Virus record (IMG/VR): IMGVR_UViG_3300028706_000043
Span: 1 to 22,340 of that record
DNA: 22,340 bases
From: a virus
Reading direction: 5' to 3' (one strand)
Positions 3,444 to 22,268 of this stretch are shown in pieces (the first letter of the stretch is position 1; each line of letters starts with the position of its first letter). The position numbers and the translations under genes are program-made. The notes beneath the pieces were generated by a model. The model was not told the origin of the DNA. It was given only the letters and a program-made list of their open reading frames with translations, and made no database searches.

Positions 3444-4145
3444 TTACGGTGTCGGAGACTGAACGGGTATACGTGGTTCGCCGTCCGTATAATCGTCTCG
3501 TCTTCTTCTACCTATTTGTTCTCCACCGAATTTTTGTACTTCGGTTTGATATTTTTGTTCGTATAATTGTAACATATCCATCGGGCCTTTTAAATAACTA
3601 AATGCCTCTACCAGACATGCATATAAAAGTCCATTGCCAAAATTAAGACTTAAATAACTTGTTGTATTTGCTGAACTCAATCCTGTTGGTCTAGCGTTGT
3701 AATGAATTTTGTACATAAAAGCTGAAGAAGGTGTTGGTACAATTGTAATTCTTCCTGAAGAAGTTGCTCCCGTTCCATCTGCTCCTCCTGACATAGCATA
3801 ATATTTTGGTGTGCCAGTAGTTGTTTCAGCTGCATCATATTCTCTTAAATAACTAATATCTTTTTTTTCAAGCCAACTATTAGCTCCAGTTGCAGCCGTT
3901 GTTGAAGTATAAACTTGAAGTCCTCTAATAAATAAAGTTCCCGCAGGAGCATAAACATTGTCTTTTGAAGCTGTTAAATTTCCAAGCATTTCTTTTCGAT
4001 CTGCATCAATTGGAATATCTCTTTGAATTCTAAGTTCTGAATTATCTATAAATTGATCAGTAATTGTACTTGACAATACTGAAGTTCCAACTTCAGTATA
4101 ATTCTGAATTGCTGTTGTAAGTGTTGAATAAGTAAATCCTGCCAT
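3444..4145 (-). CDS. Head-tail adaptor-like protein (233 aa)
   Basis: The N-terminus (FTYSTLTTAIQNYTE, then TITDQFIDNSELRIQRDIPI) has the helical pattern of podovirus adaptor proteins of the phage SU10 type: a short helix, a FIxxAExRI-like helix, then a beta domain ending in RITIVPTP. The C-terminal third is again helical (LLYACLVEAFSYLKGPMDMLQLYEQKY), followed by a basic tail with RRRR. Such proteins form a ring below the portal that connects the head to the short tail. The stop is at 3444 and the ATG at 4145 overlaps the preceding stop by 1 nt with no clear RBS, so translation probably depends on coupling. The family call is from memory of the motif pattern and is moderate. Confidence 0.7.
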   Translation of the reverse strand: MAGFTYSTLTTAIQNYTEVGTSVLSSTITDQFIDNSELRIQRDIPIDADRKEMLGNLTASKDNVYAPAGTLFIRGLQVYTSTTAATGANSWLEKKDISYLREYDAAETTTGTPKYYAMSGGADGTGATSSGRITIVPTPSSAFMYKIHYNARPTGLSSANTTSYLSLNFGNGLLYACLVEAFSYLKGPMDMLQLYEQKYQTEVQKFGGEQIGRRRRDDYTDGEPRIPVQSPTP

Positions 4146-21105: not shown

Positions 21106-21127
21106 GTGTGGTCCAACAGGACCACAC
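21106..21127 (-). terminator. Perfect 9-bp hairpin after the 87-aa gene
   Basis: GTGTGGTCC and GGACCACAC (21106-21114 with 21119-21127) pair perfectly around a 4-nt loop, 17 nt after the stop of the 87-aa gene. The stem is strong and GC-rich but has no following T-tract on either strand. It is more like a transcript 3'-end or processing element, or a protein-binding palindrome, than an intrinsic terminator. Confidence 0.5.
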
Positions 21128-21434: not shown

Positions 21435-21463
21435 ATCCTAGTCTAATTCAGTTCTATTGTCAA
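21435..21463 (-). promoter_or_regulatory. Promoter cassette copy 2, overlapping the end of the zinc-motif gene
   Basis: On the minus strand a perfect TTGACA (21458-21463), a 17-nt spacer and TAGGAT (21435-21440; 4 of 6) lie inside the last codons of the 109-aa gene. The stop TAG is the first three bases of the -10. Downstream, ATAACTAATACAGGAGAAA leads to the ATG at 21407. The sequence from -10 to RBS matches copy 1 (22240-22268) almost base for base. Confidence 0.75.
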
Positions 21464-21767
21464 CCCTTTCAATAGTATTATAAGTACGATATCCACTATC
21501 ATCAGTTATCTTGTGATAGCCTTGGCTCTCTCGTCTGTGTCTGATAAACTCTATCGGTCTGCCTTGCTCGATGTTTTCCATATTAGTTGCTAACCATTGT
21601 AACTTACATGATTGACTACAAAAGTATTTATCTGACTCTGAATACCAATTCTGGTCCATGTCACAGTATGCATACTTACCACGAACCACACCTCTAGATT
21701 TTAGAAACCTATCTGTTGTAGGTTTTTCATGGCACGTCGGCCCTTGGCAAAAATGTTTGTTAGGCAT
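21438..21767 (-). CDS. Small zinc-ribbon-like protein (109 aa)
   Basis: Five Cys are arranged as a metal site: C7-x4-C12, then C35, then C50-x3-C54 (FCQGPTC, YCDMD, YFCSQSCK). This suggests a zinc-binding fold, perhaps nucleic-acid or protein binding. After residue 60 the chain is polar, with RPIEFIRHRRESQGYHKI. I recall similar Cys-rich small proteins in marine phages without known function. It starts at 21767 with GAGGGGG 6-7 nt upstream. The gene overlaps the 58-aa gene by 8 nt at its start. Its 3' end carries the promoter for the next gene. Confidence 0.7.
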   Translation of the reverse strand: MPNKHFCQGPTCHEKPTTDRFLKSRGVVRGKYAYCDMDQNWYSESDKYFCSQSCKLQWLATNMENIEQGRPIEFIRHRRESQGYHKITDDSGYRTYNTIERVDNRTELD

Positions 21768-21936
21768 TATTATCCCCCTCAGTCATTTGAAACCTTGCCA
21801 AGATTTTGGCATGGCTTTCGATTGCGTTCTCTAAAGTTTTAATTCTATCTTCTAGATATTTAAACTTGTTGCGTTGCAACATTGCGTCTTTGTTTCTGTC
21901 TATTGTTTCAAAGTGTTCTTCATTTTGTTGCGTCAT
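21760..21936 (-). CDS. Small coiled-coil-like protein (58 aa)
   Basis: The frame MTQQNEEHFETIDRNKDAML continues to EDRIKTLENAIESHAKILAR and ends GDNNA before TAA at 21760-21762. It is almost entirely charged and helical with a heptad-like hydrophobic pattern (L, I, L, I), so it probably oligomerises. GGAG is 9 nt before the ATG at 21936. It starts on an ATGA overlap with the 27-aa gene and ends 8 nt inside the zinc-motif gene, so the three are translationally linked. Function unknown. Confidence 0.6.
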   Translation of the reverse strand: MTQQNEEHFETIDRNKDAMLQRNKFKYLEDRIKTLENAIESHAKILARFQMTEGDNNA

Positions 21937-22016
21937 TTTTTATCACTCCATAATCTTAAACCTATTAGAATAACTATCATTCCAAAGAATGATAGTTCAT
22001 ATATTAATTGTTCCAT
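21933..22016 (-). CDS. 27-aa single-pass membrane micropeptide
   Basis: The frame starts MEQLIYELSFFGMIVILIGL and ends with RLWSDKK. One hydrophobic stretch (about residues 9-22) followed by a positive C-terminus is the pattern of a small inner-membrane peptide. GAGG lies 7 nt before the ATG, the preceding gene stops 1 nt away and the next gene starts on its TGA (ATGA), so its size and position are bounded on both sides. Small phage membrane peptides often act as lysis or host-takeover factors. Here only its existence is argued. Confidence 0.5.
   Translation of the reverse strand: MEQLIYELSFFGMIVILIGLRLWSDKK
21972..21997 (-). repeat. Perfect 11-bp inverted repeat inside the micropeptide gene
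   Basis: The arms aactatcattc (21972-21982) and gaatgatagtt (21987-21997) enclose a 4-nt loop. It starts 17 nt inside the coding sequence. There is no T-run on either strand, so it is not a terminator. In mRNA it would slow the ribosome early in the gene or act as a regulatory or protein-binding site. Confidence 0.65.
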
Positions 22017-22017
22017 A

Positions 22018-22209
22018 TTAAAACCTCATTTTCCAACTGCCTTTTGCTGTTCTATATCCGTCAGCGTCCATATCAAAGTATATCATAATTTGATGACCTA
22101 ATTTAGTTAATCTTTCTTGACACTTGTCCGTCCATTTTGCGTTTCTTGTTATATGCTTTTTATGTTTCTTTGCGTAGTATGTTATTTTAAACGTTTGTCC
22201 TATTTCCAT
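22018..22209 (-). CDS. Small conserved phage protein (63 aa)
   Basis: No function is known. It begins MEIGQTFKITYYAKKHKKHI, is basic in the first 25 residues, and ends YFDMDADGYRTAKGSWKMRF, a C-terminal pattern I remember from other marine phage small proteins. It looks like a compact alpha/beta domain with a terminal beta strand. AGGAGA about 8 nt upstream supports the ATG. It has promoter copy 1 (22240-22268). Its stop lies 1 nt from the micropeptide ATG, so 22209-21438 is probably one small operon. Confidence 0.7.
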   Translation of the reverse strand: MEIGQTFKITYYAKKHKKHITRNAKWTDKCQERLTKLGHQIMIYFDMDADGYRTAKGSWKMRF

Positions 22210-22239
22210 GTTTCTTTCTCCTGTATTGGTTATAGGACT

Positions 22240-22268
22240 ATCCTATTACAGATAGCCCTAGTTGTCAA
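22240..22268 (-). promoter_or_regulatory. Promoter cassette copy 1 with operator-like palindrome
   Basis: On the minus strand a perfect TTGACA (22263-22268), 17 nt and TAGGAT (22240-22245). The -10 is part of a palindrome ATAGGA-TAG-TCCTAT (22232-22246), which could bind a repressor or activator. The following ATAACCAATACAGGAGAAA repeats copy 2. The spacing is ideal and the -35 perfect. Confidence 0.8.

Follow-up and report, generated by a model that had tools for sequence, protein, structure and literature searches.

Does a frame of only 27 codons, tightly packed into a phage operon and holding a perfect hairpin, matter to the virus as a peptide, as an RNA structure, or as both, and what might it do? 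The question is raised by the window, the whole 22,340-nucleotide stretch of virus record IMGVR_UViG_3300028706_000043 that was analyzed here. The elements of the operon are as follows, with the promoter first and the genes in the order of transcription.

22233-22268, minus strand: operon promoter, with -35 TTGACA at 22263-22268, -10 TAGGAT at 22240-22245, and 17 nt between them.
22233-22260, minus strand: operator-like inverted repeat in the promoter.
22018-22209, minus strand: conserved 63-aa gene, homologue of HTVC027P gp36 and upstream border of a variable slot.
22024-22027, minus strand: Shine-Dalgarno (SD) GAGG of the micropeptide gene, within the 3' end of the 63-aa gene.
21933-22016, minus strand: 27-aa single-TM micropeptide gene (MEQLIYELSFFGMIVILIGLRLWSDKK), ATG start, with 22 distinct relatives.
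21972-21997, no strand assigned: perfect 11-bp inverted repeat with a 4-nt loop inside the micropeptide gene, intact in one subgroup only.
21946-21949, minus strand: GGAG SD of the 58-aa gene, contained in the micropeptide's W-S codons TGG AGT.
21760-21936, minus strand: 58-aa gene, charged and coiled-coil-like in look, the slot's downstream border.
21438-21767, minus strand: 109-aa cysteine-rich gene, putatively zinc-binding, homologue of HTVC027P gp37.

The packing that a sequence-only reading had ascribed to the 27-aa frame is all seen in the sequence: an RBS (GAGG, 7 nt from the ATG), a 1-nt gap after the 63-aa gene, whose end lies at 22018, and an ATGA overlap with the 58-aa gene, which starts at 21936. 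The one hydrophobic helix that it described is present as a single TM-like stretch, which would presumably insert into a membrane. Besides the contigs that share the exact hairpin stem, relatives were found with degenerate DNA patterns that take no account of the stem (the same amino acids in any codons, the C-terminal motif, and the N-terminal motif); the N-terminal-motif matches L288, L289, and L292 were dropped because they encode unrelated proteins. Length and sequence are kept across the 22 distinct relatives, with family lengths of 24–28 aa and the consensus M(T)EQxxYEL-(hydrophobic)-LIG[LF]R[LI][WF][GSR]D. Changes fall at 103 third, 58 first, and 19 second codon positions, with a pN/pS of 0.071 within the close (ELSFFG) group and 0.25 across all relatives. 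The frame and its amino acids are conserved amid excess synonymous change, as expected of a genuine small gene. Because third-position changes dominate and pN/pS is low, we judge the micropeptide to be a real gene under protein-level purifying selection, yet one missed by gene finders.

At its terminase end, which includes this operon, the window (a virus fragment) aligns to Pelagibacter phage HTVC027P with 73% identity across 46% of a 4.3-kb query, a match that marks it as part of an HTVC027P-like pelagiphage of the HTVC023P/027P type. Pelagiphages, which infect the marine bacterium SAR11, are among the ocean's most abundant viruses, and we know of no function for most of their early genes. 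HTVC027P itself has neither the micropeptide nor the 58-aa gene; there, gp37 (109 aa) comes immediately after gp36 (63 aa). The micropeptide family is nevertheless common to two unrelated pelagiphage backbones, that of the window and a ~34–36-kb group comprising Greip, HTVC100P, HTVC024P, and others. HTVC100P holds a 25-aa homologue at 548-625 (56% identity, no annotation), and contig L172, whose closest relatives are Greip and HTVC100P, also carries the 27-aa family. A pattern search for the family gave 0 matches in 84,980 bacterial and archaeal genomes, and PHROGs, Pfam, and PADLOC returned nothing significant for the 27-, 58-, 63-, and 109-aa proteins. An Rfam hit to CRISPR-DR40 at 21836-21865 scored under the gathering threshold and was taken as chance.

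Still smaller TM peptides of 20–21 aa (e.g., MESMYLAFILAIIIVLIWGK) were observed beside or near the 27-aa family at L172:11157-11219, L170:334-396, L171:866-928, L173:7774-7839, and L275:5227. Greip has an unannotated 20-aa peptide, MEHFYLALVLAIIITLIFGK, of the same type as the neighbor of the 27-aa gene in L172. Reference isolates miss such genes, as the HTVC100P and Greip peptides both illustrate.

The locus between the 63-aa and 58-aa genes behaves as a variable slot. Among 73 distinct slots, 38 hold one gene, 8 hold two, and 27 were read as empty, although two of the latter (L072 and L245) probably hold an occupant overlooked by the automatic parser. Occupants belong to several families of 21–55 aa, and a TM-like stretch was found in 44 of the 46 distinct ones, the exceptions being L098 (an apparent frameshift) and L215 (a mis-chosen frame), compared with 0 of 16 annotated HTVC027P CDS of 65 aa or less. 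Another peptide stands before the micropeptide in L227 and after it in L223, while in HTVC100P and L172 the micropeptide precedes unrelated genes. Judged by these predicted TM stretches, the slot hosts tiny membrane peptides that stand in for one another, and the micropeptide family is one such group.

In most occupants, the last codons double as the SD of the next gene. The micropeptide family provides GGAG through TGG AGT GAT or TGG GGA GAT, and in nearly all of its members the next start follows either GGAG or a shorter run of purines; other families build AGGAG, GGAG, or AGGA from different codons. Where the slot is empty, the 58-aa gene relies instead on a GAGG in the 63-aa gene's 3' end. 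The Ser before Asp is always encoded by AGY, which makes up 29% of the window's Ser codons; this bias is suggestive, the members being related and their count not one of independent events. The SD codons, unlike the hairpin, appear as a visible nucleotide-level constraint in the gene.

Synonymous divergence also sets the gene apart from its surroundings. For the same contig pairs, pS is 0.18–0.24 in the micropeptide gene versus 0.52–0.61 in the flanking genes; between the window and L008 there is one difference in the micropeptide gene, and the flanks are saturated. DNA identity forms a roughly gene-sized island at the micropeptide gene. Since its synonymous sites are far more conserved than those of the flanks, the simplest account suggested is gene exchange between diverged phages, while nucleotide-level constraint rather than exchange could be an alternative.

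We consider it probable, with real room for doubt, that this is an accessory membrane micropeptide gene of HTVC023P/027P-type pelagiphages, sitting in an exchangeable slot and modulating a host membrane process. The peptide would most likely insert into the inner membrane of SAR11 as a single helix, with its acidic N-terminus out and its basic C-terminus in. The family, written M(T)EQxxYEL-[hydrophobic stretch]-LIG[LF]RLW[GS]DxK, would be one of several interchangeable slot peptides. An occupant takes its RBS from the 3' end of the preceding gene and gives one to the next gene via its own last codons, so that the operon would stay expressed as occupants come, go, or are exchanged. During infection, the peptide may bind and modulate a host membrane protein or process, with host takeover, exclusion of competing phages, and evasion of defense as candidate purposes. 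The gene is accessory and variable and its predicted location is the membrane, which is the pattern of superinfection-exclusion or host-takeover factors. When the sequence-only reading offered a lysis or host-membrane factor, the second half was the better one: a host-membrane role is our best reading, drawn from hydrophobicity and the accessory, exchangeable pattern, and a lysis role is less likely given dispensability and location. The main text of the HTVC027P transcriptome study (PMC12753301) gives no timing for gp36–gp39, and that phage is without the micropeptide gene.

What, then, of the hairpin? The perfect 11-bp stem with a 4-nt loop reported within the 84-nt gene was located there in full, with arms at 21972-21982 and 21987-21997. 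Perfect stems of at least 11 bp with loops of 3–8 nt are expected 0.03–0.05 times per 22-kb window, and one was seen; when the peptide was back-translated with codons drawn at the window's frequencies, 2 of 20,000 sequences reached 11 bp (P about 1e-4). Folding energy is ordinary compared with synonymous sequences (P = 0.18; 18% were as good) and gives z = -2.2 relative to dinucleotide shuffles. We regard the stem as genuine and rare, only modestly so once the whole-window search is allowed for.

The exact stem recurs in 11 further viral contigs, each time at a homologous gene. Elsewhere in the family, it is broken synonymously with the helix identical (TCA to TCT in L170 and L171, ATA to ATT in L172) or lost through amino acid changes (L124, L073, L254, L258, L260, L262, and L264). 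Over 21 distinct sequences, pairing holds in 88% of cells, covariation equals that of shuffles (157/500), and a two-sided change occurs in only one cell; RNAalifold gave no consensus pair (0 pairs) across the relatives. Synonymous-site conservation and compensatory changes had been proposed as checks on the stem. The former is seen for the gene as a whole against its flanks and not for the arms, whose codons vary like the others (4/7 versus 9/13 outside in the ELSFFG group, an unbiased set), and the latter failed to appear. Because the stem is broken without compensation, covaries no more than shuffles, and yields no RNAalifold pair, we regard it as a feature of one subgroup that is not structurally conserved, and a conserved RNA was rejected family-wide. 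Thus, where peptide and RNA structure had both been called constrained, the peptide half stands on its pN/pS and the RNA half falls; in the same way, the frame is conserved in the 22 relatives and the stem is perfect in one subgroup only.

Stems were also observed in an unrelated, two-TM-like 52-aa slot family (e.g., L295:1317-1472, L301:1501-1656, and L325:1501-1647), where a 10-bp perfect stem lies inside the gene with arms CTATCCATGT/ACATGGATAG or CTATCCACAT/ATGTGGATAG. Of 35 distinct segments, 6 have the stem perfect and most have it broken, and within a subgroup both partners have changed in two of the pairs. Overall, stems of at least 8 bp occur in 34% of slot genes, an excess that comes largely from two clades, versus 1.8% expected and 8.5% and 0% in the two neighboring genes. 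This could reflect a function specific to the clade or template-switch mutation, which at imperfect palindromes could yield both perfect stems and paired changes. Separately, a 9-bp perfect hairpin (GTGTGGTCC/GGACCACAC) lies at 21106-21127, downstream of an 87-aa gene, with similar ones in L262 and L245; it is a possible terminator, without a T-run.

Could the hairpin nonetheless work within its clade, as an RNA-processing or DNA-exchange element around which the peptide sequence was shaped? Its rarity given the peptide, the six 52-aa-family segments with their paired changes, and the excess of slot-gene stems all speak for it. Against these stand uncompensated breaks across most of both families, the missing consensus fold, the ordinary synonymous variation of the arm codons, and template switching as another source of such stems and paired changes. 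The intragenic stem also does not follow the promoter palindrome type: the same stem is kept despite promoter palindromes GGGGAGAATAT, CCTATCCTAC, and TAGGGCTATC, and the idea that it copies the promoter operator was rejected. We consider a working hairpin unlikely; in the membrane-peptide reading that we favor, it would be a side effect of the nucleotide sequence, confined to its lineage, and not a working part.

A lysis factor, that is, a minimal holin-like or antiholin-like peptide, would fit the single hydrophobic helix and the replacement of membrane peptides by non-homologous ones at one locus, which is typical of holins. We hold it to be distinctly unlikely, since the micropeptide is absent from about a third of slots and no lytic enzyme is adjacent, the M15 peptidase gp17 of HTVC027P lying ~8 kb away. 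The peptide is also shorter than known holins, and neither a lysis-cassette neighborhood nor a PHROG or significant Pfam match was found for it.

The promoter offers a separate observation from the intragenic stem. Its palindrome has its center some 21 nt past the first T of TTGACA and was found in 92 of 97 distinct relatives, versus 4 of 485 shuffles; the relatives include HTVC027P upstream of gp36 (L002). With 40 different inner arm sequences, pairing is kept while the sequence changes, and we describe it as a fixed-position, hypervariable, operator-like palindrome. Elsewhere in the window, at 4070-4099 (plus strand), TTGACA is followed by a 24-nt near-perfect palindrome ending in TATAAT, antisense within the gene at 3444-4145. 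A bolder proposal would make the slot an exchange site of marine phages for membrane micropeptides only, with the recurrent hairpins as exchange or RNA-processing elements, and would join it to the promoter palindrome in a diversifying module for phage-phage competition (exclusion); we give this little credence.

A type I toxin-like hydrophobic peptide, suggested by a size and hydrophobicity like those of TisB- and Ibs-like peptides, seems very improbable, as the good SD and operon position suggest ordinary co-expression and the Rfam scan showed no relevant family. Least credible of all is the leader or attenuator, the regulator of the 58-aa and zinc-motif genes put forward by the sequence-only reading, in which translation of the 27-aa frame through its internal hairpin would control them in cis: although the frame overlaps the 58-aa gene by ATGA and is coupled to it by an SD, it has neither a fixed downstream partner nor a conserved structure, because about a third of slots are empty with the 58-aa gene still following with its SD, other peptides intervene on either side, the downstream genes change, and the stem is broken in many relatives.

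The accessory membrane micropeptide thus fares best, and it has a wider bearing. Membrane peptides of 24–28 aa, with neighbors down to 20–21 aa, are common to unrelated pelagiphages and appear to be swapped in a fixed slot, and they would offer a tractable handle on how pelagiphages act at the SAR11 membrane.

Several known systems resemble this one in part. T4 Imm and HK97 gp15 are superinfection-exclusion or host-takeover membrane proteins of about 80–100 aa. Like them, the micropeptide would be an accessory small inner-membrane protein that varies between relatives; it is far shorter at 27 aa. KdpF, CydX, and AcrZ are single helices of about 30–50 aa that act by binding a larger membrane protein. 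The micropeptide shares their small single-TM form, with a putative partner, but is phage-borne and exchangeable where they are bacterial. Holins and pinholins, too, are small membrane proteins that give way to unrelated ones at a single locus, whereas the micropeptide is much shorter, dispensable, and away from the lytic enzyme. Finally, it resembles the phage small proteins of unknown function of Fremin et al. 2022, as cited in PMC11323111, in being a conserved small phage ORF missed by annotation; compared with those, 27 aa is at the extreme of size, and here a syntenic slot for membrane peptides only is defined.
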